Shown here: positions 1 to 16,827 of the stretch, one piece after another
How positions within the stretch are numbered: the first letter of the stretch is position 1
Layout of the letters: each line of letters starts with the position of its first letter
Translations under genes and position numbers: made by a program
Notes under the pieces: model-generated
The model's input: only the letters and a program-made list of their open reading frames with translations
The model's database searches: none
Told to the model about the DNA's origin: nothing
Assembly: GCA_030041095.1 (NCBI GenBank)
Contig: JASHON010000147.1
Span: forward strand, 1 to 60,395
Length of the DNA: 60,395 nt
Source: Terriglobia bacterium
GTDB taxonomy: Bacteria; Acidobacteriota; Terriglobia; UBA7540
Direction of reading: 5' to 3'

Positions 1-10
1 GAATCGTCAC

Positions 11-26
11 TGGCTGGCAAATTGCT
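11..26 (+). promoter_or_regulatory. Candidate sigma-54 promoter upstream of the glycan operon
   Basis: The sequence reads TGGC, seven bases, then TTGCT. The GG (12-13) and GC (24-25) are exactly ten bases apart, as required for the -24/-12 element. Transcription would start near 37, about 115 bases before the first gene at 151. The match is read directly from the sequence; its function is inferred. Similar elements occur upstream of the histidine kinase, fliL and the minus-strand glycosyltransferases. A gene upstream of the window edge cannot be excluded, but none is visible in bases 1-117. Confidence 0.5.
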
Positions 27-150
27 CTGGTTATCGGCCTGCGGGCAGAGGAGGTAAGCGGTTCGCAGTGAGCCGAGGTAATCTTAGGCAATTCTTAACC
101 GGCACAGCCGTGAACCGTTGATCAGCCTGATGGATGGTGAGGAATCACTC

Positions 151-579
151 ATGAATACGAACGCTCATGGAATGGCGCTTTCGGCGCCTGCAATCGAGCC
201 TGGCATGAAAGAAATTGAGACGCATTTCGTCAAAGTCGCGGTTGCCATCAACGAGCACTCAAAGGCATTGGTCAGCATGCGCGATCAGTTGACAAACCTG
301 GATAGGAACTCGGCTACGGCATTTGAGCTGATTGCAAAATCCATAGCAGCAATCAAAGGCAGGCTCGCCAGGCTGGAGACTGAAGTTGCGGGCTTACGGC
401 CTCAGATCGGGGATATGAAGGTTCATGCCGCGTCATTTCCCCACGCACTCCGCTCCGCGCGGCGCTCCGACGCTGCCGTGCAGGAGGCGCAGAAATTGCT
501 TGAGGAAAAGTTAAGACGCATGGAGCTCAGGCTTGAGGCTTGTTTGCGAAGGAAAAGGAGAGGGGAAGCCGGGCAATGA
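151..579 (+). CDS. Coiled-coil hypothetical protein heading the glycan operon
   Basis: No family is recognised in this protein of about 142 residues. The middle (from about residue 15 to 90) and the C-terminus (about 110-140) are rich in Glu, Lys, Arg and Leu with heptad-like spacing, suggesting long helices or a coiled coil. No signal peptide or membrane segment is present, so it should be cytoplasmic. ATG 151 is preferred over a start at 118 because GGTGAGG lies eight bases before it. Its stop overlaps the start of the next gene (ATGA), which implies translational coupling with the GT2-GT4 glycosyltransferase. It could be a scaffold for the glycosyltransferases, but that is only a guess from position. 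Confidence 0.6.
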   Translation: MNTNAHGMALSAPAIEPGMKEIETHFVKVAVAINEHSKALVSMRDQLTNLDRNSATAFELIAKSIAAIKGRLARLETEVAGLRPQIGDMKVHAASFPHALRSARRSDAAVQEAQKLLEEKLRRMELRLEACLRRKRRGEAGQ

Positions 580-2876
580 ACCGAGCGTCTGTCGTGATCA
601 ATACTCTGAACCGCGCGGACGCCCTGGAACAGGCGCTGCGCTCGCTCCGGCGCCTCAACCACCCTGATTTCGAAGTCATCGTCGTCAACGGCCCCTCCAG
701 CGACCACACTCTGCAAGTGCTACAAAAGTGGGCGTCCTCTATCCGCGTTGGATCCTGTTCCGACCGCAATCTTTCCATTTCGAGGAACGTGGGCATTGAG
801 ATGGCGCGCGGTGATCTGGTGGCTTTCATAGACGATGATGATGTCGTTACCGAAAACTGGCTGAATGATGCCGTGGCGGGCTTTGACTCGGAAGAGGTTG
901 GAGGCGTCGGTGGTTTAGTCTTCGATCACACCGGACACGAGTTGCAATATGCTTTCACAGTATGTGACCGGTATGGGAATGCTTACTTTGGCCGAGAGGA
1001 GCCTGCGCTCGGATTCTGTTATCCCGGGTGTCTCCGGTACCCGGTCCTGCAAGGCGGGAACTGCGTGTTTCGCCGGACCGCACTCCTCGAGATTGGTGGC
1101 TTCGACGAAGAGTTCGACTACTACCTCGATGAAGGGGACGTATGCTTGCGCCTCACGGACGCTGGCTACGTTTTGAAGCACGTGCCCAAGGCGTTTGTTT
1201 ACCACCGCAGCTTACCCAGCTACCTCCGAAACGGCGAGCGAATCGTTACGGACTGGCGGCCATTCGTCAAGAACAAGGCGTACTTCAGCCTGAAGAATAC
1301 ACTGCCAGGCTCAGATCTGCCTTCCGCATTCCGCCAGCCGGTCGAATACGCCTCCCAGGCAGAAATCTATTCGAAAGCCCGGCTGGCGGCGACCGGTGCT
1401 GGAGAGCAGGTAATCGATGAAGTATCTATGGGCTTGGGAGAAGCCCTTCGTGAAGGCATAGCCCGAGGACTGACACAGCCGCGCCGGTTTCTTTCGAGCG
1501 CCGCGGCCGCGAAGATGCGCGGCCCGGTCGCGATGGACCCGTGGGAGAATGGGCATGCTGGCACGTTCAAGCCCTGTCCGGCGGTCCTTCAGGCGTCCGA
1601 GAAGTTAACCGTTTGCCTGCTCAGTTCCGGATATCTTCCTGAGAAAAAGGGTGGCATCGCGCGCTTAACTTACGACCTCGCTTGCGGTCTTGCTGCCCGA
1701 GGCCACATCGTTCATGTGCTGACCACCAGCCCTCATTCTCATAACACAGTGGATTTTGAAGAGGATGTCTGGGTACATCGTCTGGTTCCCAGCCGCCGCG
1801 TCCCCCCCCCACCGCCAGACGTTGAGGTTCCTCTGCAAACCTGGTGGCATTCCGCGACCATGCTCCAGGAGCTATACCGAATTCGGGCCATGCATCCTTC
1901 CCTTGACTTGGTGGAGGCGCCCGTCTGGGATGCGGAGGGCATCGCGGCGATGACGAATGGGTCATTCCGCGTGGTCACTTCATTGCATACACCGCTAAAA
2001 TCCTGGATCAAAACGAATCCGGATCTCATCAACGGTTCGGCGGAGCAACGGAACTTCTTCGAAGGGCAGATTGCTGCGGAGAAACTGGTGGTAGAGCGCT
2101 CTCACGGCGTTCGCGCTAACAGCGAGGCGATTGTAATCAACATGCGCGAAGCTTACGGCATCGAGTTTGGCGCGAACCAGCTCTCCGTCATTCCCCACGG
2201 AATGGAAGACCGGTCCAAAGGACTCAACCCGCGGCGGAACAGCGAATACGTTACCGTCCTTTACACGGGGCGATTAGAGCTCCGGAAAGGCATTGACATG
2301 TTGCTCGAAGTCATTCCCGCGCTGTGCTTCAAGCATCCGGCAGTGCGATTCATCCTGGTAGGGGAGGAGATCCCCCGGTCTTACGGCATTACGCCCACTG
2401 CGAGTTTCAAGGAGTCGCTTGCGGCAGCACCGTTTCGCGATCGGGTCATTTTCACTGGCGCTGTATCCGACGCCGAACTCGAGCGCCTTCTGGCTGAATG
2501 CGATGTGTTTGTGGCGCCTTCTCGCTACGAATCCTTCGGGCTGGTGTTCATCGAGGCCATGATGTTTGGCAAGCCAGCGATCGGCTGCCGCGCAGGAGGA
2601 ATGGCAGAAGTGATTGTCGACGGAGTGACCGGGCTTTTGGCTGAGCCCGGCGATTCGCAGAGCCTCGCAGAGGCGCTAGACCGGCTGATTAGCAGCGCCG
2701 AGCTGCGCAAGTCCTTGGGGGAAGCGGGAAGAAAGCGCTACCTCGAACATTACACTCGGGACCGTCTCATCGACAGAACCCTTGAATTCTACAGACAAGT
2801 CATCCAAAGCTCCACGCCGGGTGATGCGAAGCCGCCCACCCTCGCGTATTTGCAAGCCAAGGATTCGAACGCATGA
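576..2876 (+). CDS. Two-domain glycosyltransferase, GT2-GT4 fusion
   Basis: This protein of about 766 residues joins two glycosyltransferases. Residues 1-250 are a GT-A fold GT2 domain starting SVVINTLNRADALEQAL, with an acidic metal-binding run FIDDDDVV near residue 90. Residues from about 343 to 745 are a GT-B fold GT4 domain, with the glycine-rich LPEKKGGIARLTYDLA entry loop, the YTGRLELRKGID segment and an EX7E motif in ESFGLVFIEA. It probably adds two successive sugars to one acceptor in the cytoplasm. ATG 576 overlaps the upstream stop. A run of nine C residues (1802-1810) inside the GT4 part encodes a proline run and could be prone to slippage. The exact sugar and acceptor cannot be read from sequence. 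Confidence 0.85.
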   Translation: MNRASVVINTLNRADALEQALRSLRRLNHPDFEVIVVNGPSSDHTLQVLQKWASSIRVGSCSDRNLSISRNVGIEMARGDLVAFIDDDDVVTENWLNDAVAGFDSEEVGGVGGLVFDHTGHELQYAFTVCDRYGNAYFGREEPALGFCYPGCLRYPVLQGGNCVFRRTALLEIGGFDEEFDYYLDEGDVCLRLTDAGYVLKHVPKAFVYHRSLPSYLRNGERIVTDWRPFVKNKAYFSLKNTLPGSDLPSAFRQPVEYASQAEIYSKARLAATGAGEQVIDEVSMGLGEALREGIARGLTQPRRFLSSAAAAKMRGPVAMDPWENGHAGTFKPCPAVLQASEKLTVCLLSSGYLPEKKGGIARLTYDLACGLAARGHIVHVLTTSPHSHNTVDFEEDVWVHRLVPSRRVPPPPPDVEVPLQTWWHSATMLQELYRIRAMHPSLDLVEAPVWDAEGIAAMTNGSFRVVTSLHTPLKSWIKTNPDLINGSAEQRNFFEGQIAAEKLVVERSHGVRANSEAIVINMREAYGIEFGANQLSVIPHGMEDRSKGLNPRRNSEYVTVLYTGRLELRKGIDMLLEVIPALCFKHPAVRFILVGEEIPRSYGITPTASFKESLAAAPFRDRVIFTGAVSDAELERLLAECDVFVAPSRYESFGLVFIEAMMFGKPAIGCRAGGMAEVIVDGVTGLLAEPGDSQSLAEALDRLISSAELRKSLGEAGRKRYLEHYTRDRLIDRTLEFYRQVIQSSTPGDAKPPTLAYLQAKDSNA

Positions 2877-3763
2877 GAGTCCTGTTCCTGTCGAGTGGCA
2901 GGCGCCAGGACTATCAATGCGATTTGCTCTTCGACGGACTTCGTGAACTTCTTGGCCCGGACGTGGTGGATTCGCAACGGATCTGGTTTATGTACGAGTC
3001 TGACGTAACGCCCGAAAAGAAACGTTCGCTCTACGGAAGGGGATTTACGCTTTACGGCAGCCTGCCCGATCTACGAGTTGACCGCTGTGACATTGAGGAA
3101 AAGCTTCGGCGGCGATACTTCGATTTGGTGGTCTATGGGTCGGTCTGGCGCAACCTGGATCATTTTTCAATTGTTCGGGACGTCTACCCGCGCTCTCAAG
3201 TGGCGCTCATCGATGGAGAAGACGGCCAAGCCATCAAGGAAGAGTTACTTCCCTGCGGCAGGTACTTCAAGCGTGAATGCACGCGCCAATCTTCAGCTTG
3301 CATCCCCATTAACTTCGCGATACCCAAGCGAGCGATCAGAAGGAGCGTTCCGCAGAAAACGAGAGTTTGGGCCACCGTCGTCCCCGGCCGGCTGGAGACT
3401 TACACATTCGAAAACGAGCAGGATTATTTCGACGACTATGCAGCCAGCGTGTTTGGCGTCACAAGAAAAAAAGCGGGTTGGGACTGCCTCAGGCATTACG
3501 AAATCCTTGCCAACGGATGCATTCCGTTTTTCGAGGGCTTACGGTCTTGCCCGGCGCATACGATGATAACCCTCCCCAAGCGGTTTCTCCGCAAAATCGA
3601 AAGAGGTTATCTGGGCGATCTCTTCGCCATCCCTTTGGAAGTGTTCGAGGCCTGCCGTGCCTATGCGGAAGAACACTTGACGACCAAGGCGCTCGCCCGG
3701 GACTTCCTTGATGCCATGAAGAATGGCAAGCGGAGAATAGTTTGCAGACCGCTCGAGTTTTAG
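2873..3763 (+). CDS. Uncharacterised glycosyltransferase-like protein
   Basis: This 296-residue protein has no confident family assignment. It begins with a strand-turn MRVLFLSSGR like GT-B enzymes. Near residue 208 it has the segment WDCLRHYEILANGCIPFF, which resembles the donor-binding region of exostosin-like transferases, where an R/H..E.L..GCIP motif recurs. There is no signal peptide or membrane helix. Its ATG overlaps the stop of the GT2-GT4 gene, so the two are co-translated and probably act on the same glycan. A role as a third glycosyltransferase is inference from this motif and operon context. Confidence 0.55.
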   Translation: MRVLFLSSGRRQDYQCDLLFDGLRELLGPDVVDSQRIWFMYESDVTPEKKRSLYGRGFTLYGSLPDLRVDRCDIEEKLRRRYFDLVVYGSVWRNLDHFSIVRDVYPRSQVALIDGEDGQAIKEELLPCGRYFKRECTRQSSACIPINFAIPKRAIRRSVPQKTRVWATVVPGRLETYTFENEQDYFDDYAASVFGVTRKKAGWDCLRHYEILANGCIPFFEGLRSCPAHTMITLPKRFLRKIERGYLGDLFAIPLEVFEACRAYAEEHLTTKALARDFLDAMKNGKRRIVCRPLEF

Positions 3764-3835
3764 CTTCTTATTATCGGTTCCATAACTTAATGAAGAGAGC
3801 TCTGTGATGCTGCCGGCTCCTCAATCTTCAAGAGG

Positions 3836-5383
3836 GTGAACTCGAAAGCAGGCGCCATGATGCTGGAAAAAGCGCTTCGCTGGGTCAGGGCCAATTCGGT
3901 CCCTGGCGCTGGAATCGTCATCAGTTCACGCCAGAGGTCGAGCTATCCGGAGGTAACGGGATACTTCATTCCCACGCTTCTGTCCGTCGGCTACAAAGGT
4001 TTGGCTTCTCAGTACGCGCGATGGTTGCTCTCAGTTCAAAGAGACGACGGCTCGTTCGGCATGGACGGCGATCCATGCGGCTGTGGCTTCGCGTTCGACA
4101 CGGGGCAAGTTGTGCGCGGCTGGGTGACGATGATCGATCGGATGCCCTCGCTGGAGGCGCCTCTTCGGAGGGCATGCGACTGGCTGGTGCGATCGGCGGA
4201 CTCGAGCGGCAGACTGCCTGTTCCTGGGCCTGGGGGCGCCTGGAGTTTAGGGCGCCGCGGCGAGGTTAACGAGGCGATCCATCTCTACGTCCTCCCACCC
4301 CTTCGGGACGCGGCGGAGATATTAAACGAGCGTTCATACCGTGAGTTCGTCGGCAAGAGCCTGGACCACTATCTGAGAAACGCGATCCTGACTGACTTTC
4401 GGCAGCCAAACGCACTGACCCATTTTTACGGTTATGTGCAGGAAGCGCTTGTAGATCTTGGTTGCGACGCGGAGGCCCGGGCGGGCATGGCTTCCGTTGC
4501 AGAGTTGCAGCAGCCCACCGGAGCGGTTCCCGCGTACCATGATGTCGAATGGGTATGTTCAACGGGTTTGGCGCAGCTAGCCTTGGTGTGGTTTCGCTTG
4601 GGAGAAACGGCCAGGGGCAACAAGGCGGCCGAGTTTCTGTCGTCTCTGCAAAGCGGGAGCGGTGGATTCTACGGATCCTACGGTGTAGGCGCTGACTACT
4701 TTGCGGCGGAGGAGATATCGTGGGCCGTAAAATATGCAATAGAATCCGTTCAGAGGCAAATTTCCAGCCATTTCGATAATACGGCGACCTCCTATCAATC
4801 CGATATTTCGCCAAGCGATGCCAGGGTCGAAGCCGTTTTGCAGCGCCTGGGAGATCTCAATGGCAAACGTCTGCTCGATGCCGGCTGCGGAAAAGGACGC
4901 TACGTTAAACTCATTAAACAACTGTACCCTGAAGCCATGATTACAGCGATGGACGTTTCACCTCAAATGCTTCGGCATGTCCCGCAAGGGATTCGCACGG
5001 TCCAGAACTCCATTTTGAATATGCCCTTCGCCGATGGTGAATTTGATGCGGTCATTTGTATCGAGGCCCTGGAACACGCCGTGCAAATCGAGGAATCGGT
5101 GAGGGAGCTGGCGCGCGTTCTCGCCGTGAATGGCAAGCTGATCATCATAGACAAAAATGCCGAAAAGCTCGGATCGCTTGAAATACCCAGTTGGGAGAAG
5201 TGGTTTGATACAGAGGAACTTGCCTCGATGATGAGGGAGGAGGGGCTCGAAGTAAGCTCTGAGTTCGTGGGATACGACGGAGTACGACGGCCCGACGGCC
5301 TGTTTGTGTGCTGGAGCGGAACAAAGACTTGTCACAAGCGTGAATCGCCCGAGAGCTTGTTTTTGGAGAAGACTCGCGGCTAG
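3836..5383 (+). CDS. Alpha/alpha-toroid protein fused to a SAM-dependent methyltransferase
   Basis: Residues 1 to about 310 look like an alpha/alpha-barrel of the terpene cyclase/prenyltransferase type, with recurring QW-like turns such as SVQRDDGSFG and SLQSGSGGFYGSYG. No cyclase DXDD motif is obvious, so this part may bind rather than cyclise. From about residue 340 a class I methyltransferase follows, with motif I LLDAGCGKGRYV and a later IEALEHAVQIEESVRELARVL segment (seen in two parts). The start is uncertain: GTG 3836 has AGAGGG too close to it, while ATG 3857 is the next in-frame choice. It sits between glycosyltransferase genes, so methylation of a sugar or of a lipid-linked glycan is plausible. 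Confidence 0.65.
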   Translation: MNSKAGAMMLEKALRWVRANSVPGAGIVISSRQRSSYPEVTGYFIPTLLSVGYKGLASQYARWLLSVQRDDGSFGMDGDPCGCGFAFDTGQVVRGWVTMIDRMPSLEAPLRRACDWLVRSADSSGRLPVPGPGGAWSLGRRGEVNEAIHLYVLPPLRDAAEILNERSYREFVGKSLDHYLRNAILTDFRQPNALTHFYGYVQEALVDLGCDAEARAGMASVAELQQPTGAVPAYHDVEWVCSTGLAQLALVWFRLGETARGNKAAEFLSSLQSGSGGFYGSYGVGADYFAAEEISWAVKYAIESVQRQISSHFDNTATSYQSDISPSDARVEAVLQRLGDLNGKRLLDAGCGKGRYVKLIKQLYPEAMITAMDVSPQMLRHVPQGIRTVQNSILNMPFADGEFDAVICIEALEHAVQIEESVRELARVLAVNGKLIIIDKNAEKLGSLEIPSWEKWFDTEELASMMREEGLEVSSEFVGYDGVRRPDGLFVCWSGTKTCHKRESPESLFLEKTRG

Positions 5384-5414
5384 CGGCGACAGGTTGTAAG
5401 AGGAGTCGGGATTG

Positions 5415-8306
5415 ATGTTATTCAACAAGACCGCAATCGCTGCAAAGAATGCCTGCTTAGACGCAATTCTGGATCGGCCTGATCTTCTTCGGAATGTCAT
5501 TCAGGAATTCGCGGGGGATGGGGTCGAGGCTGTCTATCACGTAACCAAGCGCGCATGGGAGCCGGGCGGCGGGGCGACCCTGTTTCAAATCCGATTCGGC
5601 AGCCGGGAGGCTTTCCTCAAGGTCAAAAGCACTGCGGTCACGGTTGAGAGCAAATTGGAGGGGGAGAAGGAATTCATTGCAGTTCCATCCGTCCGCAATG
5701 AATTTGAATTTCTCCAGAGGCTCCAAGGCGTCTCTGAAAACGTGCCGAAACTTTTGGGATATTCTGAAAAAGACGGTTTCTGTTTTCTTTTCCTGGAAAA
5801 GCTGATCCCTTGGCGAGCGGCCCTCGATTCCCTGTCGCCCCTCGAGGTTCTCACTGCCTTCCGGCAAATCGAGGCAACCGTTCGCACGTTGTTCGAAAGG
5901 GACATGGTACACACCGACGTCCACGAGAACAACCTGATGTTCCGGGATAAGACTCCTGTCCTGATCGATTTTGAGGAGGCGCGTTATCTGGCGCAGGACA
6001 TTCCCTTCGAAAGATCTTTGGACGTTGCTGGTGAAAACGCCTGGGGCAACGTAGGATTCATGCCGGAGGGATATGGTTTCGCGGGTGGTTATACGTGTCT
6101 CAATCGCCTAAGGACGGAATTGTCAAAGGTGATCGTGACCAAGCTGCCCGAATTGATCAAGCAGTGCAATTTCGACTCTTCGTGTTCCTTTTTAGCAACC
6201 CTGGACCACGGGCGTGACGACAGGATCTATCAGTCGATTAATCTGCCGGGCATCCAGGTCGCGGGGCAACGCCCGCTTGAGGATTCGAGGATCAGGTTCT
6301 TGGGCAAGGTATGTGAAAAGCTCTTTGATGCGCCGGTCACGCATCTGGATATCGGCAGCAACCTTGGACGATTTAATCTGGAGCTTTCCCGGACTCCAAT
6401 GATTCGAAAGAGTATCGGAGTAGAGGCTTACGGAAAGTATGTCGAGCTCTCCAACCTATTGGCGTTTTTGATTAATTCATCCAAAGTTGAGTTCTTCCGC
6501 GCGGAATGCGGCCAAGACAGTCTCTATGAGCTTTTGAAGGATGAGCAGATCCAACTGGTAACCGTCTATTCGACGTACCATCATATTACCAACAAAGAAC
6601 GATTCCTGGCTGATCTGGCAAAACTCAATCCATCGTATGTGGTGATTGAGGCGGCGGTTCAGGAGGAATGCTATGGGAGGGACTGGAAAACAGAAATCAT
6701 TTACATCTGCAACAAGCTTAAGATGGGCTACGCAGCAGTACTTGGATTCAGTGAGGATTATCAACGGCCAATCGTTCTGCTGTCCCATAACTCCAACGTC
6801 GAAAAACTCATCGCTGGCCAGACGCGTCCCAGCGCAGTCAAAGTAAGGCTCGATGACGCGCAAACACCTCCGCTGGTTTCAGTCGTGCTCCCCACGTATA
6901 ACCATCTGACCATGCTGCCGGTTTCCATCGGCAGCGTCCTGGCGCAAACCTTCACAAATTTCGAATTAATCATTGTCAATGACGGATCGACCGACGGCAC
7001 TCGTGATTATCTCGACCGGATCAGCGAACCTCGGATCCGGGTGATCCACCAGGAGAACAAGCGGCTGCCCGGGGCGCTCAATGCGGGATTCGAGGCCGCT
7101 CGAGGGAGGTATTTCACCTGGACCTCCGACGACAATTATTGCTCGCCTGGTTTTCTGGGGTCCCTGGTCGAAGCGCTAGACCGTGACCCTGGGGCTGGGT
7201 TTGCGTACTCGGCTTTCGCCTGGATCGATGAGCGCAACAGGATCAAGGGCGTACATCGCGATCAGGACTTCAGCTATCCCAGCCTCCTTCGGTGCAACCC
7301 CGGTAACGCTTCTTTTCTTTATCGGCGTGAGTGCCAGGAAACGGTAGGTCGCTACGATCCTGAATTGGAAGGGGCCGAAGACTGGGACATGTGGCTGCGA
7401 ATCAGGGAGCATTTCGAGCCCGTCTACGTACCGCAGATTCTTTACTATTACAGACTTCACGATAAAAGTATGACCGCGACTCAAGGGGATATGATTCGGC
7501 GCTCTTCACAATTGACCTTTCGTAAAGCACTCGGCCGCCACCCGGGCGGACTGACTCTGGAATCGCTCTACCCCTCAATTTCCGAGTGCAGGGACGGAAC
7601 GACGGCAACCTTACACGCATGCTTGGATATGGGAGAGAAGATGATGACTTCTCCCTGGTTCAACGGCGATTACGCTCAACTGGCCATCTTTTTCCTGACT
7701 AAGGCTGTGGAGCTGTGCAACTCTCCGGTAGCGGCAGGAAACCTTGCGGCGGCATACGCATTACTCGGGCAAGGGAGGGAAGCTCTGCAGATCGCCAGGC
7801 GATTGGAGGTTATAGATCATCCGTTGATCCGTAATCTCTATCTGGCGATAGCAAATTCTAACGGGATGTGTGCGGGCGGAAGGCTGCCTTTACTGGTGAT
7901 GGACAAATCGAGAAGCGAGTTGTTCCAGTTGGAATCCAAACGCAGACGCACGGCCGAGGACGCCACGTCAAACTCCGCGCGACATCCTTCGCCCACTCGC
8001 TCACTTCAGCCTGAAACGAACCATCGCCATACCGGTTGTGACCCCGAACACCTCCGGGCGCTGGTCGGGGAGGCACACAGGCAATATCTCATCGGAAATC
8101 GTGCGGCGGCTGTGGAGTTGCTACAGAAGGCCTTGGCGGTCGCTCCGGAAAATGCCCGATTCCTTACTCGGCTGGCATCTCTGATGAACGGCCTTGGCGA
8201 GGTCTCTTTGGCTCGTGAAGCGGCTCGGCGCGCATTGTCATTGGATCGAAATGACAGCGGAGCGCTTTCCCTCGCCCATCAAATGGGTCTCCGGGTGTCA
8301 TCGTGA
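5415..8306 (+). CDS. Kinase-methyltransferase-GT2-TPR four-domain protein
   Basis: This protein of about 963 residues combines four modules. Residues 30-200 resemble a small-molecule or LPS-type kinase: AFLKVKS supplies the lysine, MVHTDVHENNLMF (about 164-176) is the catalytic loop with HxD and Asn, and LIDFEEA is the metal-binding Asp. Around residues 300-430 is a methyltransferase-like fold with motif I THLDIGSNLGRFN. From about 488 to 720 there is a GT2 domain (VSVVLPTYNHL, IIVNDGSTDGTRDYL, TSDDN). The C-terminus has helical TPR-like repeats. ATG 5415 is favoured because AGGAG lies nine bases upstream; a TTG directly precedes it. The combination suggests stepwise phosphorylation, methylation and glycosylation of one acceptor, which is inference. 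Confidence 0.75.
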   Translation: MLFNKTAIAAKNACLDAILDRPDLLRNVIQEFAGDGVEAVYHVTKRAWEPGGGATLFQIRFGSREAFLKVKSTAVTVESKLEGEKEFIAVPSVRNEFEFLQRLQGVSENVPKLLGYSEKDGFCFLFLEKLIPWRAALDSLSPLEVLTAFRQIEATVRTLFERDMVHTDVHENNLMFRDKTPVLIDFEEARYLAQDIPFERSLDVAGENAWGNVGFMPEGYGFAGGYTCLNRLRTELSKVIVTKLPELIKQCNFDSSCSFLATLDHGRDDRIYQSINLPGIQVAGQRPLEDSRIRFLGKVCEKLFDAPVTHLDIGSNLGRFNLELSRTPMIRKSIGVEAYGKYVELSNLLAFLINSSKVEFFRAECGQDSLYELLKDEQIQLVTVYSTYHHITNKERFLADLAKLNPSYVVIEAAVQEECYGRDWKTEIIYICNKLKMGYAAVLGFSEDYQRPIVLLSHNSNVEKLIAGQTRPSAVKVRLDDAQTPPLVSVVLPTYNHLTMLPVSIGSVLAQTFTNFELIIVNDGSTDGTRDYLDRISEPRIRVIHQENKRLPGALNAGFEAARGRYFTWTSDDNYCSPGFLGSLVEALDRDPGAGFAYSAFAWIDERNRIKGVHRDQDFSYPSLLRCNPGNASFLYRRECQETVGRYDPELEGAEDWDMWLRIREHFEPVYVPQILYYYRLHDKSMTATQGDMIRRSSQLTFRKALGRHPGGLTLESLYPSISECRDGTTATLHACLDMGEKMMTSPWFNGDYAQLAIFFLTKAVELCNSPVAAGNLAAAYALLGQGREALQIARRLEVIDHPLIRNLYLAIANSNGMCAGGRLPLLVMDKSRSELFQLESKRRRTAEDATSNSARHPSPTRSLQPETNHRHTGCDPEHLRALVGEAHRQYLIGNRAAAVELLQKALAVAPENARFLTRLASLMNGLGEVSLAREAARRALSLDRNDSGALSLAHQMGLRVSS

Positions 8307-8529
8307 TGGAAACGCGATGCCTGGTCTTCGCCGATTTCTTAATTCGAAAGGCCCCTGCCGCACGCCCAATTCTTCATTCCAGCAGCCAAACGTACTCGGG
8401 CCTTCCTCATGAAACGTGTCTTGCTCGCTATGGGTATGCGTCCAGGGAGGAATATCGCTGGTTTCCACAATTGTGGGACCTGTAAGCCTCTGTAGGTTTT
8501 GTGCGAGAAGGGCGCTTCAAGGTCCGGTT
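8307..8529 (+). other. Intergenic stretch with a palindrome and no convincing gene
   Basis: This 223-base gap separates the four-domain protein from the epimerase gene. Short open frames exist: one of about 60 codons overlapping the upstream stop, and one of 28 codons at 8409-8495 starting MKRVLLAMGMRPGRN. Neither has a good ribosome binding site. A perfect 12-base palindrome, CCACAATTGTGG, lies at 8465-8476, about 54 bases before the epimerase start, and could be an operator. The short frames may be gene debris. Confidence 0.4.
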
Positions 8530-9756
8530 ATGGGTGCATCTAAGAAACGCGTATTGATTGTTATTGGCACCAGGCCGGAAGCGATCAAGCTGGCCCCGGT
8601 AATCCAGACGCTTCGGGAAAGGCCAGGATCGTTTGATGTAGGTGTGTGCGCCACCTCCCAGCATCGGCGCATGATGGATCAGGCGCTCGATTTTTTCAAT
8701 ATCGTTCCCGATTTCGACCTCGACATTATGCGCGACCGTCAGGAGCTGCACGAAATCGCCTGTGGGGTTATTGCCGGCCTGCACGAGGTTTTGCGAGTGT
8801 GGCGGCCTGACTGGGTTGTGGTGCAGGGCGATACGACCACCACGTTCGCCGCAGGCATTGCCGCTTTTTATGAGCGCATTCGTGTCGCCCACGTGGAAGC
8901 CGGGCTCAGGACGGGAAACATAGATGCTCCTTGGCCGGAGGAGGCGAACCGGCGGTTGACCAGCGTTATTTCGTCTCTGCATTTCGCGCCCACGGCCTCC
9001 GCCAGAGCCAATCTCCTGCAAGAGGGAATAGCGGAAAGGAACATCCACGTGACGGGAAACCCGGTTATCGATGCGCTGCTGCGAACCGTTGCGGCCGTCA
9101 GCGGAAATTCCGCGCTAGCTCGCCAGCTTGATTCACGGTTTTCGTACCTGGATCGCAACAGGAAAATGATTCTCGTGACCGCCCATCGCCGGGAGAGCTT
9201 TGGCGCTGGGCTTGAGCGCATCTGCAGGGCACTGCGTGAGATAGCTCTTGGAAATTCGGTCGAGGTCGTCTGCCCGGTTCACCCCAATCCCAACGTAGAA
9301 GGCCCTGTGCATGAGCTGCTCGGTGGCCTGCACCCTATTCATCTTCTCGAGCCCCTTCAGTACGTGGAGTTTGTCTACCTGATGGAAAGGTGCCACTTTA
9401 TCATTACGGATTCGGGAGGCATTCAGGAGGAGGCCCCGTCCTTGGGCAAGCCCGTCCTCGTGATGCGCGACGTTACCGAGAGGCCCGAGGCGGTGGCCGC
9501 CGGCGCAGCCCGCGTTGTCGGCACGCAGACTGAAAAGATCGTATCCGAAGCATGCAGGCTGCTTCACGACCGGACCGAATACCAAAAAATGTCGCAGTCG
9601 CCCAACCCTTATGGGGACGGGGAGGCGGCCCGGCGAATCGCAGACGTTCTCAGCGCTGCAGAGGAGCGCTGGGAGTCGAGCGAGCTGCTGCCGGGGAAAA
9701 TGCATCATCTTCTTGGTGGATTTCCGGCGCCGGGCTGCGCGGCTCATGAACGCTAG
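8530..9756 (+). CDS. wecB: UDP-N-acetylglucosamine 2-epimerase (non-hydrolysing)
   Basis: The enzyme interconverts UDP-GlcNAc and UDP-ManNAc in the cytoplasm, supplying an activated sugar for surface glycans. The family signatures are all present from ATG 8530: VIGTRPEAIKLAPVI at the N-terminus, HVEAGLRTG, WPEEANRRL, TAHRRESFG and the nucleotide-binding TDSGGIQEEAPSLGKP. Its length of about 408 residues is slightly above the usual 370-390 because of a non-conserved C-terminal tail after residue 380. ATG 8530 is chosen over upstream in-frame starts because the family N-terminus begins there. It is the last gene of the plus-strand glycan block and gives a donor for the glycosyltransferases before it. 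Confidence 0.92.
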   Translation: MGASKKRVLIVIGTRPEAIKLAPVIQTLRERPGSFDVGVCATSQHRRMMDQALDFFNIVPDFDLDIMRDRQELHEIACGVIAGLHEVLRVWRPDWVVVQGDTTTTFAAGIAAFYERIRVAHVEAGLRTGNIDAPWPEEANRRLTSVISSLHFAPTASARANLLQEGIAERNIHVTGNPVIDALLRTVAAVSGNSALARQLDSRFSYLDRNRKMILVTAHRRESFGAGLERICRALREIALGNSVEVVCPVHPNPNVEGPVHELLGGLHPIHLLEPLQYVEFVYLMERCHFIITDSGGIQEEAPSLGKPVLVMRDVTERPEAVAAGAARVVGTQTEKIVSEACRLLHDRTEYQKMSQSPNPYGDGEAARRIADVLSAAEERWESSELLPGKMHHLLGGFPAPGCAAHER

Positions 9757-9942: not shown

Positions 9943-11193
9943 ATGAGCCTGCGAAAGAGTACCGCATCAAGATTCCGTACTTCAGCAGAGCTGCCAGGCA
10001 GCGTTCATCGCAGCGCGCTTGAGGCGTGGGCCGCCGGTGCTTGCCGGATAGCTCTCGCGATGTGTCTGGCGGCCGGGCTGGCTATGGGAGCTGTTCAGGC
10101 TTCAATTGTGGTGGACGCCGGGACTGGCGCGGTACTTGAGGAGCATCATGCCGACGAACTGACGTACCCTGCATCGTTAACCAAGCTGATGACGCTCTAC
10201 CTGGTTTTCGGGGCGCTACGGCGAGGAACGCTCAGACTGGATGAGAAACTGCTGGTGTCGCGGCATGCGGCTGCACAACCGCCCACCAAGTTGGGTCTCA
10301 GGCCCGGCGGCTTCATTTCTGTCGAGCAGTGTATCCTGGGCATCGTGACGCACTCCGCGAACGACGCGGCGGTCGTCCTGGCCGAGGGCGTTGCCGGGAG
10401 CGAGCAGCGCTTTGCCAGCTTGATGAACGAGCAGGCCCGGCAGCTTGGCATGAGCCGCACCACTTTCCGTAATGCCTCGGGTCTTCCCAACGCGTTTCAA
10501 AAGACGACGGCCCGAGATATGGCCACAATTGCGGTTGCGCTTATATCCAACTTTCCAGGCTATTACCATTTTTTTGACGTCCGGGACTTTACGTTCGGCG
10601 GCAGGAGGTTTTACAGCTTCGACCACGTGCTCAGCGATTACCCAGGCGCCGACGGGATGAAAACGGGCTACACCAGCGCCTCCGGGTTTAACCTGGTAAC
10701 GTCAGCCGTGCGCGGGCAACGGCGGCTGGTGGGCGTGGTGCTGGGAGAGAACACGAGTTGGGCGCGCGAGCGGCTGATGATCGCTCTTTTGAATCAGGCG
10801 TTCTTGCGAGAGGCGGGTGCGACGTTGACGAAGACCGGCTCACCGGCTGAAGCTCGTGGGGATCAAGCGCCGGCTCAGCCCGACGCCGTCAGCAGCCTGG
10901 AAATGAACGAGGTGAACGCTCATACGGCCCACGACTGGGCGATTCAGGTCGGCGGCATATTTCGCAACCCACGCGCGGTGCGTCGAGTGCTTGAGAGCGC
11001 TCGTCGCACGGCTCCTGCGCTGAGGCACGCCAAAGCGCTCGTCATCGAGGCGCCCGGAAGGAATCGCTATCGGGCGCGCTTTGCTGAGATGACCCAGCAG
11101 CGCGCACTGTCAAGCTGTGGCGTTCTCCGCCGGCGACATTTTACATGCATGCCATTTCACATTCCCGTCTCCGTAGCTTCGGCGGGCCAATAG
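9943..11193 (+). CDS. dacA: D-alanyl-D-alanine carboxypeptidase with C-terminal SPOR domain
   Basis: This S11 family penicillin-binding protein trims the terminal D-Ala from peptidoglycan stem peptides in the periplasm. An N-terminal hydrophobic segment (about residues 27-50, ending VQA) is a signal peptide or anchor. The catalytic motifs are intact: S78-L-T-K81, S138-A-N140 and K240-T-G242. The C-terminal part, from HDWAIQVGGIFRNP at about residue 326 to the YRARF segment, matches SPOR domains, which bind denuded glycan strands at septa; rhizobial homologues share this layout. AGAGGAG precedes ATG 9943. It is followed after three bases by an M23 peptidase gene, so the two are a murein-remodelling unit set between glycan blocks. 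Confidence 0.88.
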   Translation: MSLRKSTASRFRTSAELPGSVHRSALEAWAAGACRIALAMCLAAGLAMGAVQASIVVDAGTGAVLEEHHADELTYPASLTKLMTLYLVFGALRRGTLRLDEKLLVSRHAAAQPPTKLGLRPGGFISVEQCILGIVTHSANDAAVVLAEGVAGSEQRFASLMNEQARQLGMSRTTFRNASGLPNAFQKTTARDMATIAVALISNFPGYYHFFDVRDFTFGGRRFYSFDHVLSDYPGADGMKTGYTSASGFNLVTSAVRGQRRLVGVVLGENTSWARERLMIALLNQAFLREAGATLTKTGSPAEARGDQAPAQPDAVSSLEMNEVNAHTAHDWAIQVGGIFRNPRAVRRVLESARRTAPALRHAKALVIEAPGRNRYRARFAEMTQQRALSSCGVLRRRHFTCMPFHIPVSVASAGQ

Positions 11194-11196: not shown

Positions 11197-12492
11197 ATGT
11201 CTGTATTGAAAAATCCAGCCTACAGCCGAACCCTGATGGTTCTCTTGGGGCTTCTTGTTGCAGGCGCGGTAATGCTGGTTTTCATCATTCAACGCCGCAG
11301 GGCTGCAGAGCGTCAATTGACCCCGGGCCGTCCGAGCGCTATAGAGACAACGGCCCAGAGCGTGAAGCCGCAAATCTTTCGTGCCAGGAGCCGGATCCCG
11401 GCGCGCACGACGTTCACGAGGTTCATGCGCTCGCAAGGCATTGGCAGAGCCACGATCGCTCGCATCGTCAAGCAGTCGCGGCCGGTCTACAATCTGGGCA
11501 AGGTGAAGGCTGGCGCTGAGATCACACTAACGAAGTCCGCAAGCGGTGGCTTGGTGGGCTTGTGCTATCAGATTGACCCGGAGCGCCAGCTTTGGATCGA
11601 GCGGGAAGGCCAGAGCTTTGCTGCGCATATCCAGAATATTCCGGAAACGACGGTCGTTACTGGAGTGAGCGGTCGCGTCGAGGACTCTCTGGTCCAGGCG
11701 GTTGATGATGCGGGAGCACACCAACAGCTCGCCGCAGAAATCGCTCGGCTCTTCAGGTGGCAGCTCGACTTCAACACTGACTGCCAACCTGGTGACACTT
11801 TCAAGGTGCTCGTTCGCAAAAAATTGGCCGAGACCCGCTTCGCGGGCTACGGGCAAATCCTGGCGGCGCAATACGACAATAAAGGTCACCTTTACCAAGG
11901 GATTTTATTCCACGACCCGGATGGACATGCTGCCTACTACACTCCCGGCGGCAAGGCTCTCGAGAAGGCTTTTCTCCGTTCGCCTCTCCGATTCCACGCA
12001 CGCCTCACCTCGCGCTTCAGCTACGATCGCCTCGATCCAATTCTCCATCGCTACGAGCCTCACCTCGGTATTGATTTAGCCGCGCCTGTTGGCAGCAAAG
12101 TCCAAGCCGTGGCGGGTGGGAAGGTTGTGTTTGCCGGTTGGGATGGCGGGGCCGGCCGGCTGGTACGTCTGCGACACCCTCATGGCTACGAGACTCTCTA
12201 CATGCACTTGTCGAGGATTTTGGTGCATCGGGGTGAAAGGGTGCGGCAGGGCCAGGTCATCGCGCTCACGGGTGATACGGGCTGGTCAACGGGCCCGCAT
12301 TTGGACTTTCGGATCGAGCGTTACGGGCGCTTTTTCAACTTCCTTGCGATGCATTTGCCTTCTGCCCGCAGCGTCAGCCGCAGGGAGCTGCCGGCATTTG
12401 CCGCAGTCAGCAGGCGACTGCTACGTGAGTTGGCTGCGCTACCAAGCGCTCCCAGTGCCGTACAAGCTGCGCTTGAGCGGGCTAATCCGTAG
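11197..12492 (+). CDS. Membrane-anchored M23 murein endopeptidase
   Basis: One transmembrane helix (residues 8-29) anchors the protein. A Csd3/OapA-like N-terminal region of about 200 residues follows, and then a LytM/M23 domain. The first zinc motif is H289-L-G-I-D293 and a further histidine is in LYMHLS. The second motif is H368-L-D370, where the family usually has HxH, so one metal ligand is aspartate. Such GPHLD(Y/F)R variants are known to me in M23 proteins, but activity is not certain. It would cleave peptide cross-links in the periplasm. It lies three bases after dacA and is probably co-transcribed. It resembles MepM and Csd3 in layout, but the exact orthology is not clear. Confidence 0.82.
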   Translation: MSVLKNPAYSRTLMVLLGLLVAGAVMLVFIIQRRRAAERQLTPGRPSAIETTAQSVKPQIFRARSRIPARTTFTRFMRSQGIGRATIARIVKQSRPVYNLGKVKAGAEITLTKSASGGLVGLCYQIDPERQLWIEREGQSFAAHIQNIPETTVVTGVSGRVEDSLVQAVDDAGAHQQLAAEIARLFRWQLDFNTDCQPGDTFKVLVRKKLAETRFAGYGQILAAQYDNKGHLYQGILFHDPDGHAAYYTPGGKALEKAFLRSPLRFHARLTSRFSYDRLDPILHRYEPHLGIDLAAPVGSKVQAVAGGKVVFAGWDGGAGRLVRLRHPHGYETLYMHLSRILVHRGERVRQGQVIALTGDTGWSTGPHLDFRIERYGRFFNFLAMHLPSARSVSRRELPAFAAVSRRLLRELAALPSAPSAVQAALERANP

Positions 12493-12579: not shown

Positions 12580-14367
12580 TTACTTTGCCGCTTGTTGGGG
12601 AGCCAGCCTCTCGATCTCGACGGCCAACTGACGCAGCTTTTGATCGTCCGGAAACCAGCCGAGACCTTCCTCAGCAAGCGTCGCCGCTCGCGCCAAATTG
12701 GCTGCTTGGGCGCTCAGACCGGCGGCGAGCAGATAAATCTCAGGGCGCGGCGCCGTATGCCGGAGCTTGTCTTCCGCTGCCAGCGCAGCCTCCTTGGCTC
12801 GGCCTGTCTCCAGGCACGCCGTGATGAGCCGGTCGTAGTTCTCAATAGCCTGGGGAAGCTGCTTCACCGCTTTTTGCAGGCGGGCAAGCCCCTCCTCCAC
12901 CCATCCCGCGCGTACCTCCGCAATGCCTAACTTGCTTTCCACCACTGGAGAGGCGCTCAGCCTGGCCAGCGTATCGCGATAGTGCTCGCACGCCGCGGCA
13001 TAGTCTTTGTTCCGGAAGTCCACATCTCCGCGTTCGGCCATTTCGGCGATTTCCAATTGCCGCCGTGCCTCGAGAAGCCCCTCATTGAGCTTCGGATCTT
13101 TGGGAAAATGTTCGAGACCCAGCTTCACCAAATCCAACACCCGCTGCCATCGATTGAGCAGCACGTACATCGTAGCGGCGCGCAGGAAGCATTCCGGCTG
13201 GGCTTTACTCGTTTCCAGCTTTCGCTCCGCCGCTTCCGCCGCTTCCTCCAGCTTTCCCAGCCAAAGACAGGCTGTGATGAGGCGGTCGTGGCATTCAACA
13301 TTTCCAGGGGCGGCGCCGATGGCGTGGCGGAGCCGTCGCAGCCCTTCGTCTGTGAGACCGAGCCTGACTTCCGTAAATCCGAGCTTACTTTCGATCGACG
13401 GGTCATCCTGTTCGAGCTCGTGAAGTTTCTGATAGCAGCTCCGTGCAGCCTTGAAGTCGCCGAGCGCGTAATGCGATTCACCCTGGTAATCCAGCAGCAT
13501 CGTACGATTGACAGATGTTTCTTCGGCACGGGCGTAAGCCTCGATCGCACCGCGGTGTTCGCCGGTCAATGTGAGCATGCGGCCGTAATAGAGCCATCCC
13601 GGGCCAAATCTCGGGTTGAGCTGAGCGGCTTTATGAAAGTGTTCAGCCGCTTCTCCGTAATTGTGGAAATGGAGCGCTTCTTCAACGCCCAGCTCGAAAT
13701 GCGAGAGTGAGTTGTCAGGCAAGTCACGGACTTTTTGGCGGCCCAGCTCGCGGTAGAAGACGGCCTTATTCGCCTGTATCTGCTCGCGATTGAGGAACCC
13801 GAAATGATGAATGATGAATTCCGCCTGATCCATCCGCATGCCAAGCTCGTACAAGCGGTATCCGACGGTCTCGTGAACGCGTCCCTGGAAATAGACCTCG
13901 GGATGGCGCCGAAAGAGCCGTGTGTTGACGTGGTCCGCATACCCCGACAGATCTTTCACGAAGTCCCGTGTATCTTCGTTTCGTTTTGCCCTTTGGTCCC
14001 ACATAAAAAAATTGAGCTGCTGGACGTAGTTGCGGATGGTGACCGTGTAGCCCATCACCTGACGGGCGGCGAGATGGGTTGGCAGTACTTTGGCCGTGTC
14101 AGGATCCAGCATTTCATCGCAGTCGAGCATCAGCACCCAATCGCACGTTGCCCGCGCCAGGGATAGGTTGCGTGCTTTCGCGAAGTCATCTTCCCACGGA
14201 ATGCTGAATACCTCCGCACCATAGCGTCGTGCGATCTCTATGCTGTGATCGGTTGATCCGGTGTCCGCGATCACGATTTCGTCCGCCAGCCCGCGAACGC
14301 TGTCGAGGCAGCGGGGCAGCGTCTTTTCACCGTTCTTCACAATCATCGAGAGCGTCAGAGTGGGCAT
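12580..14367 (-). CDS. GT2 glycosyltransferase with TPR repeats
   Basis: This 595-residue cytoplasmic protein starts with a GT2 domain (residues 1-235): LSMIVKNGEKTLPRCLDSV, IADTGSTDHS, and the metal-binding MLDCDE near residue 80. This arrangement resembles the SunS-like group. The remaining 350 residues are TPR-type helical hairpins with recurrent KLGFTEVRLG and KLGIAEVRAG units. The TPRs may bind the acceptor protein, as in O-GlcNAc-transferase-like enzymes. It lies 75 bases downstream of another TPR-glycosyltransferase on the same strand and is probably co-transcribed. A fragment similar to its 3' end lies at 9776-9835. The acceptor is unknown; proximity to flagellar genes suggests flagellin or another filament protein. 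Confidence 0.85.
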   Translation of the reverse strand: MPTLTLSMIVKNGEKTLPRCLDSVRGLADEIVIADTGSTDHSIEIARRYGAEVFSIPWEDDFAKARNLSLARATCDWVLMLDCDEMLDPDTAKVLPTHLAARQVMGYTVTIRNYVQQLNFFMWDQRAKRNEDTRDFVKDLSGYADHVNTRLFRRHPEVYFQGRVHETVGYRLYELGMRMDQAEFIIHHFGFLNREQIQANKAVFYRELGRQKVRDLPDNSLSHFELGVEEALHFHNYGEAAEHFHKAAQLNPRFGPGWLYYGRMLTLTGEHRGAIEAYARAEETSVNRTMLLDYQGESHYALGDFKAARSCYQKLHELEQDDPSIESKLGFTEVRLGLTDEGLRRLRHAIGAAPGNVECHDRLITACLWLGKLEEAAEAAERKLETSKAQPECFLRAATMYVLLNRWQRVLDLVKLGLEHFPKDPKLNEGLLEARRQLEIAEMAERGDVDFRNKDYAAACEHYRDTLARLSASPVVESKLGIAEVRAGWVEEGLARLQKAVKQLPQAIENYDRLITACLETGRAKEAALAAEDKLRHTAPRPEIYLLAAGLSAQAANLARAATLAEEGLGWFPDDQKLRQLAVEIERLAPQQAAK

Positions 14368-14442
14368 ATTGAAAACGGGTCCTCCCGGATCTCACGTTCC
14401 AGCCACAGGCTTAATTTCTCGAGACTCTCAGTTAGACGGACG

Positions 14443-16725
14443 TCAGGGCTCGGTAAGGCGCCGGATTCGTTCCATCTGCATTAGGGCGATGCGATCCCAG
14501 GCAAGCCTCTCTCTAATTGTTTGAACCCCCAGCACGCCCTTGCTCGCCGCCTCGTCGCGGCGCTCGTAGAGGTATCGCATGGTGCGCGCCAACTCGTTCG
14601 TGTCCGGTTCGAACCACGTGCGCGGGCCGGTCATCGGGCCAAACTCGTTTTGCACGCCGGGCATTTCGATGATCCGGGCGGGAATGAAAAACGACGCTTC
14701 CGAGGAACAGAATTCGCGAGCCGGACCGAGCCCGGTCGTAATCACCGGTTTTCCGCACGCCAGCGCTTCCGCCAACGGCATGCCAAAACCTTCGCCTCGA
14801 TAGGGCAGAGCGAACACATCGCAGCCCCGGTAAAGTGACGCAAGGTTTGAATCCTCCAGCTCCTCAGTCAGGATCATCAAGTGAGGCGCGCCCGGTTTCC
14901 GCGCGGCAGCGCGGAGCAAGTCCAGTAGAGACGTCCTTGCGTAAACCGTCGCGGAGCCAAGATCCTTCACAACCAGGCTGACATCGTCGTGAGAAGAAAA
15001 CGCCCGACTGTACGCATTCCAGAGCAGGTCTGCGCCCTTCCGCGCGATGGCTCCCCCGACAAACAGAAAAACAAATGATCGGCAACCCTCGGGTCTCCAC
15101 TTTGACCCTTCGGGGGTGAAAATGTTGGTATCGACGCCGTTGGGGATCACCTGGACGCGTTCGGACTCGACGCCGGCCGATAGGAGCACGTCTTTCGTAA
15201 ACTGAGAGGGAACCCACATTTCTGTGACGTTTTGGCGAATTTGCTCCACCCATCGCACCGGCATTGAACCCGATTCCCAGGGAAAGGTGACGACAAGCTT
15301 GCCGCAAGGTACGGGGCCGAAATCTGGAAGCCAGTAATGCCTGATCGTCAAATCGAGCCGTCTCAAGCGGTGTTTAAGACCTTCGGAAATGGCTTCAAAA
15401 TGCGGCAACGCCTTACCTGGCGTATTTGCAAAGTCGGCAGGCTCCATCGCCACTTCCACGCCTGGCTGGGCCGAGAGAGCTGCCGCCAACTCACGGTTGA
15501 TTCGGGCAAGGCTCGAATTCACCCAAAAGTTGCCGATCAGCAGCGCGCCCGGCGCCACCTCTTTCTTGCGAGGCTGGGACCGGAAAGCAGCGGCTCGCTC
15601 GTCCAGCGCAGACTGTAACCTGTGCCGTTGCTCATCAGACGCCGGCGACGATTCGAGCATCTCTTGCGCCGGATTAAAAAGGCGGTGGAGTAACAGAAAA
15701 TGAAGTACGAGCTCCAGATATTGCGGCTCGCGCTGTACCAGATCTGATAACACGGTAGACGTGAGCGCCCGGGCGTGGTCATACCACAGTCGCTGCCGTA
15801 GCAGGCCAAGAACGGCGGGAGGATACGCTGGGCGCCGGACCGCGCCGTGCGAGTAATTCTCTATGGCGTCCCGCTGCTTTCCTTCGATCTCGAAGGCGAG
15901 TCCTAACAGCCATTGGCTGCGGTAGGACCGTTCCCCACCGCATCCGGCGTAAGCCGGATCACCGCTCTCGATCGCCTGCTGAGCAAAGTGGCGGGAAGAC
16001 GCGAGGTTCCCCTCCTTGACTGCAAGCCAACCCGCCAGAAATGCCAATTCCGCGCTGCGAGGGAAGTAGTCCATCGCCAGGCCTGCGAGTTTGCTTGCCT
16101 GACCTATCTCAACCACGCGGATGGCCAGCACAATCAGGTTGTACAGCACCAGCGCGCGAAGGGTTGGCAAAAGGACCGAGGCATCGCTCCAGAAGGCGAA
16201 GAGGTCCTCTGAAGCTTTCCGGGGATTGATGCTCGCACTCAACAAAGCCCGGTATATACGCGCCCACGGTTCTTTACTTCCTTCCTCTTCGAGGAATGCG
16301 ACAAACTCCGGAGAAGGGGAAACCGAGCCCGCAATCCGGAACTGGTTCGTGATGTGGTCCGACGCCTGTCCGCGCGTCCAGATTCGTGGCTGGAGGCCAA
16401 GCAGGTCAAGCTCCGGAAGGCAAGGGAGATGGATGGGAACGAGAGTGCGCCCGGGGGAGGAAACAACCGCCTCCCGCAAAACCTCTGAGGAGCCCTCCAG
16501 GAGCCGATCTCCTTTCATCCACAAGATTGCGCCGTCCGAACCGGCCGGCAAGCGATTATTGCGCAATAACGGAATGGCGCCGTCGATCACCTGATCGGAC
16601 GCATCACCAAGCTCGACTGGAATCTCGTCTTGGGGAACACCATGCGTCACTAGAGCGATCAGCGGCCTTCGATTCTGCTTTTCCTCTGCCAGGGCCGTTT
16701 TATTGCCAGATTCTTCAAAGGGCAT
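14443..16725 (-). CDS. TPR-containing GT4 glycosyltransferase
   Basis: The protein has about 760 residues. An N-terminal region of 150 residues has no assigned fold. TPR-like helices occupy about 190-370. A GT-B fold GT4 domain lies between about 400 and 755, with the donor-side segments VPSQFTKDVLLSAGV and VIPNGVDTNIF, and an EX7E motif in EGFGMPLAE. ATG 16725 is preferred over 16743 because GGAG is placed eight bases before it. A sigma-54-like element lies upstream on the same strand. With the downstream GT2-TPR gene it forms a minus-strand operon facing away from flbD. It probably transfers a sugar to a protein acceptor bound by the TPRs; this is inferred. Confidence 0.82.
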   Translation of the reverse strand: MPFEESGNKTALAEEKQNRRPLIALVTHGVPQDEIPVELGDASDQVIDGAIPLLRNNRLPAGSDGAILWMKGDRLLEGSSEVLREAVVSSPGRTLVPIHLPCLPELDLLGLQPRIWTRGQASDHITNQFRIAGSVSPSPEFVAFLEEEGSKEPWARIYRALLSASINPRKASEDLFAFWSDASVLLPTLRALVLYNLIVLAIRVVEIGQASKLAGLAMDYFPRSAELAFLAGWLAVKEGNLASSRHFAQQAIESGDPAYAGCGGERSYRSQWLLGLAFEIEGKQRDAIENYSHGAVRRPAYPPAVLGLLRQRLWYDHARALTSTVLSDLVQREPQYLELVLHFLLLHRLFNPAQEMLESSPASDEQRHRLQSALDERAAAFRSQPRKKEVAPGALLIGNFWVNSSLARINRELAAALSAQPGVEVAMEPADFANTPGKALPHFEAISEGLKHRLRRLDLTIRHYWLPDFGPVPCGKLVVTFPWESGSMPVRWVEQIRQNVTEMWVPSQFTKDVLLSAGVESERVQVIPNGVDTNIFTPEGSKWRPEGCRSFVFLFVGGAIARKGADLLWNAYSRAFSSHDDVSLVVKDLGSATVYARTSLLDLLRAAARKPGAPHLMILTEELEDSNLASLYRGCDVFALPYRGEGFGMPLAEALACGKPVITTGLGPAREFCSSEASFFIPARIIEMPGVQNEFGPMTGPRTWFEPDTNELARTMRYLYERRDEAASKGVLGVQTIRERLAWDRIALMQMERIRRLTEP

Positions 16726-16812
16726 GGTGCTATCTCCAGGCACGAGGGGGTGATCGCGCCGAAGGCGCAGGAATTCACTCGCCGGTTGGAAACCTGTCCG
16801 CTGTCCACTAAA

Positions 16813-16827
16813 GCATTTGGAATGCCA
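16813..16827 (-). promoter_or_regulatory. Candidate sigma-54 promoter of the minus-strand glycosyltransferase operon
   Basis: On the minus strand the sequence reads TGGC, seven bases, then ATGCT, with GG and GC exactly ten bases apart. The -24 part is perfect and the -12 part has one mismatch to TTGCW. Transcription would start near 16801, about 75 bases before ATG 16725, leaving room for the GGAG ribosome binding site. It lies in the divergent region shared with flbD. Confidence 0.4.

Follow-up and report, generated by a model that had tools for sequence, protein, structure and literature searches.

A putative flagellin glycosylation island in an uncultured Terriglobia bacterium: a conserved transferase pair with a variable tailoring set

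The window analyzed here is the entire contig C136 (60,395 bases) from the 4.88-Mb draft genome (207 contigs) of an uncultured Terriglobia bacterium (Acidobacteriota). Its left part carries a cluster of glycosyltransferase (GT) genes beside flagellar genes, and we interpret this locus, with a probability of about 0.8, as a flagellin glycosylation island. The island would combine a conserved core of two transferases, both linked to tetratricopeptide repeats (TPRs), with a variable and partly foreign set of tailoring enzymes. Gene identities are from Pfam and NCBIfam searches of the window proteins, and the relatives compared are Terriglobia and Acidobacteriota genomes, all of them drafts.

Position and conservation of the transferase pair

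The first gene of the pair encodes TPR-GT4 (14443–16725, minus strand), a protein of FlmG-like architecture with a Pfam GT4 domain at residues 557–681. Its N-terminal half is TPR-like, with profile A1 matching consensus TPR proteins (E 1e-7). The second gene encodes GT2-TPR (12580–14367, minus strand), which is GmaR-like by its Pfam domains and by a profile match to GmaR. Both form a single minus-strand operon, the core of the island, between flbD-motAB and fliC-fliD-fliS. The gene for the swarming-motility protein FlbD (16984–17238, plus strand; PF06289, E 5.1e-27) diverges from this operon and is followed by motA and motB (17251–18911, plus strand; Pfam, and NCBIfam PRK09109 over cut-off). 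An earlier, sequence-only reading of this DNA had placed two opposite-strand GT operons and an epimerase on either side of the motor genes. The genes and strands are as described there, but by coordinates both operons lie to the left of motAB.

The flagellin gene of this genome is located on another contig, C167 (locus L073). Positions 1–197 of C136 match positions 1–197 of C167 exactly in reverse complement, and this sequence has just two copies in the genome, at the ends of these two contigs. An overlap of exactly 197 bases also links the other end of C136 to contig C35. The identical overlap at both ends of C136 indicates that 197 is the overlap used by the assembler and that C136 and C167 are neighbors in the assembly graph. 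The join places the start of the flagellin operon (fliC-fliD-fliS) ∼1.7 kb past the left window edge. Across it, the gene order is motAB, then TPR-GT4 and GT2-TPR, then a plus-strand block in reversed orientation, and finally a gene for an FkbM methyltransferase (MT), fliC, a gene for a 557-amino acid MT protein, fliD, and fliS. The 557-amino acid protein (L073, 2828–4501) has its MT domain at the C terminus and an N-terminal half without assignment.

In a scan of species-representative genomes, we found 18 acidobacterial TPR-GT4 loci, 10 of which show TPR-GT4, GT2-TPR, fliC (one or two copies), fliD, and fliS in that order. Divergent flbD-motAB lies on the other side in seven of these 10 (L080, L081, L082, L084, L092, L094, and L097); two of the remaining three end at contig ends, and L088 is without flbD-motAB in range. 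GT2-TPR abuts fliC in three further genomes with TPR-GT4 on another contig (L241, L242, and L245), so that it stands directly upstream of fliC in 13 other genomes in total. The TPR-GT4 orthologues of relatives are 40–49% identical. Both genes also co-occur with FliG, which is present in 20 of 61 genomes: TPR-GT4 is found in nine genomes, seven of them with FliG (p 0.004), and GT2-TPR in eight, again seven with FliG (p 0.001), p values that ignore kinship. At the head of the cassette, the relatives carry varying genes, namely a second GT4, an NAD epimerase, an FkbM methyltransferase, or an MT-GT fusion. Variable extra genes beside a fixed pair point to a constant transferase pair served by a variable tailoring set. 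On these sequence comparisons, the pair very probably acts on flagellin.

Outside the Acidobacteriota, GT4 relatives and homologues of FliC or FliD lie no more than ∼10 kb apart in L102, L103, L132, L139, and L151, which suggests that the link between cassette-type GT4 proteins and flagellin reaches beyond this phylum.

Comparison with known flagellin transferases and islands

The closest counterpart of GT2-TPR is GmaR, the flagellin O-GlcNAc transferase of Listeria, in which a GT domain is followed by TPRs (PMC9638930). When a profile of seven GT2-TPR proteins (A3) was compared with solved structures, the GmaR GT domain (22ao) was the top natural GT-domain match in the PDB (E 5.8e-30), followed by SunS (E 1e-22). 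Both proteins have an N-terminal GT2 domain and then TPRs, but GmaR comprises 637 residues and most GT2-TPR orthologues ∼450, and GT2-TPR is paired with a second TPR-linked GT, unlike GmaR. The antirepressor function towards MogR is a feature of GmaR and none is shown for GT2-TPR; no MogR search was made.

TPR-GT4 resembles FlmG, the flagellin glycosyltransferase of Caulobacter that binds flagellin through its N-terminal TPR part (PMC7591256). The likeness is one of architecture alone, an N-terminal TPR domain and a C-terminal GT-B domain, and TPR-GT4 is longer (∼760 versus 596 residues). Unlike in the FlmG system, no pseudaminic acid pathway was seen in the locus; a Maf transferase and a pseudaminic or legionaminic acid (Pse/Leg) pathway were absent from the annotated genes of the window and C167, the part of the genome searched.

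Flagellin glycosylation islands with variable GT and MT content are known from Enterobacteriaceae (PMC4875605) and Geobacillus (PMC5109656). The present locus shares with them variable GT, sugar, and methyltransferase genes beside fliC and fliD that differ between close relatives, FkbM and S-adenosylmethionine (SAM) methyltransferases, MT domains fused to GTs, and signs of horizontal gain. Here, too, GT genes adjoin the flagellin gene, as seen from the contig join and from synteny, and the sugar and modification genes vary at the site (WecB, MTs, and a kinase in this genome; epimerase, FkbM, and MT-GT in relatives). In contrast to those islands, the TPR-linked GT pair is constant across genera and the tailoring set alone varies; the site lies between motAB and fliC, the phylum is Acidobacteriota, and a kinase is fused to MT, GT2, and TPR domains, whereas the word kinase is absent from PMC4875605.

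The earlier statement that the locus matches no described system was therefore too strong, given the islands, FlmG, GmaR, and an RpoN-controlled precedent (PMC5368276). Islands of this general type have precedents in other bacteria, whereas the present version and its extra enzymes appear undescribed. New are the phylum, the fixed TPR-linked pair of a GT-A and a GT-B enzyme, and the kinase-containing fusion; in the open-access literature searched, flagellin glycosylation was not reported for any member of the Acidobacteriota.

Promoters and predicted timing of expression

The sequence-only reading had placed a sigma-54-like element before each GT operon. Such sites do exist, although neither proves anything alone. 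The −24/−12 element TGGCTGGCAAATTGCT (11–26, plus strand) lies upstream of the plus-strand operon and scores 20/23 (shuffle p 0.019 within 350 bases upstream), and the element TGGCATTCCAAATGCT (16827–16812, minus strand) upstream of TPR-GT4 and GT2-TPR scores 19/23 (p 0.052). Window-wide, matches scoring at least 20 are not enriched, with six found and seven expected from shuffles, and hence a single site carries little weight. The minus-strand site is more credible than its score alone suggests, since well-scoring sites recur at the corresponding position of orthologous cassettes: across eight orthologous divergent regions, sigma-54-like sites give a Fisher p of 7e-7 on the GT side and 0.03 on the motAB side, and the top four of 69 ranked upstream regions are those of cassette first genes (hypergeometric p 8e-5). 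The element of the plus-strand operon lacks such counterparts, as no relatives carry this operon for comparison.

RpoN and a sigma-28-type factor are both encoded in the genome. As the earlier reading had stated, a kinase and sigma-54 activators are encoded just downstream, to the right of motAB: a sigma-54 activator whose receiver domain is weak and which lacks an HTH_8 match (19749–20942, plus strand; PF00158, E 1.3e-70), a PAS histidine kinase (21039–22289, plus strand; HATPase_c, HisKA, and PAS), and a FleR/FlgR-like sigma-54-dependent response regulator (22305–23624, plus strand; receiver, Sigma54_activat, and HTH_8). The recurrent −24/−12 element, RpoN, and the encoded activators are together those of a sigma-54-dependent operon, and we consider the transferase operon to be probably under sigma-54 control.

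The flagellin gene itself (L073, 1939–2766) and its orthologues have a very uniform sigma-28 promoter, TAAAG-N14-GCCGATAR. At a score of at least 12, all 11 genomes examined have it upstream of fliC, as compared with one of 180 other upstream regions, namely that of flgE. Sigma-28 control of the GT cassette was considered and rejected: L081, L092, and L094 have weaker sigma-28-like sites on the GT side, but the present genome has none. The promoter-like sites support, but do not prove, an order in which the transferases would be expressed first and flagellin second. A precedent is flaB-jhp0106 of Helicobacter pylori, where a flagellin-glycosylation gene is under RpoN control (PMC5368276). Both cases have a flagellin-glycosylation gene by the flagellin gene and sigma-54, which is predicted here; however, jhp0106 is a Maf-type transferase of another family and forms one operon with flagellin.

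Together, the synteny of the pair with fliC and the recurrent sigma-54-like sites support the earlier proposal that glycans are made in step with flagellar assembly and modify flagellin. The hook, its other suggested target, is less likely, because fliC and not flgE adjoins the GT pair.

Proposed mechanism

The adjacent kinase and response regulator would switch on sigma-54 RNA polymerase, so that the transferase operon is transcribed in the middle of flagellar assembly. FliA (sigma-28) would then drive fliC, and flagellin would in consequence meet its transferases before FliS-assisted export. In the cytoplasm, the TPR solenoids of GT2-TPR and TPR-GT4 may hold flagellin, one transferase placing the first sugar on Ser/Thr and the other extending the sugar chain. 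Gene content, synteny, the contig join, and the promoter-like sites are observations; target residue, sugar identity, order of transfer, sigma-54 dependence, and an action of the plus-strand block on flagellin are inferred. The extra enzymes of the plus-strand block (GT2-GT4, P2, toroid-MT, kinase-MT-GT2-TPR, and WecB, described below) would, together with the FkbM methyltransferase before fliC and the MT protein between fliC and fliD, probably lengthen, methylate, and perhaps phosphorylate the flagellin glycan.

This model predicts a two-enzyme core, GT-A plus GT-B and both TPR-linked, that accompanies flagellin in different genera of a phylum dominant in soils, and a two-step timing with the transferases under sigma-54 and flagellin under sigma-28. 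If true, the pair would offer a simple system for how TPR domains choose flagellin, and the locus a genomic handle on flagellar surface variation in soil bacteria.

The lineage-specific plus-strand block

The plus-strand operon between the GT pair and fliC is lineage-specific. It is headed by upA (150–579), an open reading frame for a small coiled-coil-like protein of no credible family, followed by a bifunctional GT2-GT4 glycosyltransferase (576–2876; GT2 E 4.5e-26, GT group 1 E 1.7e-41) with a DDD motif at residue 86 and an E-E motif at residue 652. Next comes P2 (2873–3763), a member of an uncurated family with no match in Pfam, NCBIfam, or PHROG. The family has 137 relatives in IMG/VR phage contigs (L160–L239 among these loci), the best being ∼45% identical over the full length, and carries an invariant WDCLRHYEI motif. 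P2 is present in five of 396 Acidobacteriota genomes, and its profile had no match among solved structures; that it is a glycosyltransferase is a guess.

The protein encoded at 3836–5383 joins a putative α/α-toroid to a SAM methyltransferase domain (residues 347–437, E 3.2e-20). The sole match of the N-terminal half (∼300 residues) is to squalene-hopene cyclase and is not significant (E 0.1), so that the toroid fold is plausible but unproven. The gene at 5412–8306 encodes a chain of an APH/RIO-like kinase (APH E 3.2e-8), an MT-like region, a GT2 domain (E 9.1e-33), and TPRs (TPR_19, E 8.5e-6). Its kinase motifs are kept (HTD at residue 167 and DFE at residue 186), and the MT assignment between kinase and GT2 is below threshold (E 0.005). 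Of the domain fusions named in the sequence-only reading, GT2-GT4 and the kinase, GT2, and TPR parts of this chain were thus recovered, but not firmly its MT nor the toroid half. Structure predictions made without an alignment were unusable for P2 and the kinase-MT part (mean pLDDT 44 and 38).

The kinase fusion gene is followed by wecB for UDP-GlcNAc 2-epimerase (8416–9756; TIGR00236, E 6.7e-141, over cut-off) and, going beyond the glycan genes listed earlier, by two peptidoglycan enzymes, a D,D-carboxypeptidase (9943–11193; Peptidase_S11, E 6.6e-56) and an M23 endopeptidase (11197–12492; Peptidase_M23, E 5.6e-32), all on the plus strand. A link of the D,D-carboxypeptidase to the glycan is doubtful.

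When the gene set was searched beside flagellar genes of relatives, the TPR-GT4/GT2-TPR pair proved conserved, but the fusions did not. Neither full-length toroid-MT (own genome only among 61) nor kinase-MT-GT2-TPR was found in the 60 other relatives searched; the kinase-MT part occurs in its own genome only among 396 genomes of the phylum, and a search of plasmids gave no match. Base composition does not decide whether the block was gained horizontally: the plus-strand genes have a slightly lower GC content (53.9% for the kinase fusion, 54.1% for P2), but their third-position GC (GC3) of 0.62–0.69 is close to the 0.65–0.71 of flagellar genes, except for upA (0.45). Palindromic repeats (GGCATGACTTCAGTCATGCC and similar) were spotted by eye in the stretch that separates the extra block from the FkbM gene (L073, ∼300–560); they are perhaps an insertion scar.

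A kinase and a methyltransferase in one chain are known from WbdD of E. coli O9a, which works on the O-antigen glycan (PMC3482155). By analogy, the combination suggests a methyl-phosphate cap. The likeness is a functional analogy only: WbdD has the order MT-kinase, whereas here the kinase precedes the MT and GT2 and TPR domains are added, and no WbdD chain is among the PDB matches of the fusion at E up to 0.01. A more novel, though improbable, reading is that kinase-MT-GT2-TPR is a one-chain flagellin-glycan machine, in which the TPRs would hold flagellin, GT2 would add a sugar, and kinase and MT would phosphorylate and methylate the chain end. This would be O-antigen-type capping on a protein glycan, gained with the phage-type P2 as a lineage-specific block for surface switching.

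Alternative explanations

Several observations weigh against the island. The plus-strand block is unconserved, lies on the opposite strand, and holds peptidoglycan enzymes, and what ties it to flagellin is its position. The block could instead serve another surface polysaccharide (lipopolysaccharide O-antigen, capsule, or exopolysaccharide), with the pair still modifying flagellin and genes 576–9756 beside flagellar genes by accident. WecB and kinase-MT combinations known from O-antigen work (WbdD, PMC3482155) and the P2 relatives in phage contigs agree with this. On the other hand, the block sits between the GT pair and fliC, where relatives hold other variable sugar and methyl enzymes; it has its own sigma-54-like element, its kinase fusion ends in TPRs as flagellin transferases do, and Pfam revealed no polymerase, flippase, or ABC exporter within it. 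We consider the separate polysaccharide a serious but distinctly less probable explanation and, judging by position, lean modestly towards a block that acts on the same glycan as the pair.

For the pair itself, four acidobacterial TPR-GT4-type loci with adequate flanks have no flagellin nearby (L085, L086, L089, and L093), and three TPR-GT4-bearing genomes, those of L085, L091, and L093 (GT domain only in L093), have no detectable flagellin. The homologues at L085, L086, and L089 are also without GT2-TPR nearby, and the genomes of L086 and L089 carry GT2-TPR-fliC elsewhere. TPR-GT4 may therefore serve another acceptor too, as far as these draft genomes go. That the pair targets a different flagellar or secreted protein (hook or FliD) or a non-flagellar acceptor, with adjacency to fliC reflecting co-regulation only, is nevertheless unlikely, as GT2-TPR is the immediate upstream neighbor of fliC in so many genomes and has a GT domain closest to that of GmaR, a flagellin transferase. 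Finally, GT4 and GT2 domains are abundant and common across many glycan pathways, the sigma-54 site of the pair in this genome has a p of ∼0.05 taken alone, window-wide matches equal the shuffled number, and kinship is left out of the co-occurrence values. Chance clustering of unrelated glycosyltransferases by flagellar genes is, however, largely refuted by synteny and highly improbable, since the gene order is kept in many genera and the promoter-like sites recur.

Further flagellar and regulatory genes

To the right of the pair, the plus strand encodes FlbD, MotA, MotB, an OmpR-type regulator, the sigma-54 activator, the PAS kinase, and the second sigma-54 regulator, and then FlgB, FlgC, FliF–J, a GH106 rhamnosidase, FliK, FlgE, FliL, FliP, FliR, FlhB, FlhA, the sigma-28-type factor, and FliM. 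FlgB and FliJ were named by position and similarity to relatives. A 507-amino acid protein without Pfam or NCBIfam family matches (34430–35953, plus strand) lies between the rhamnosidase and fliK genes. The GH106 α-L-rhamnosidase gene (30605–33616, plus strand; E 1.3e-76) stands between fliJ and fliK; its position has no match in relative G002 and is taken by another gene in G014.

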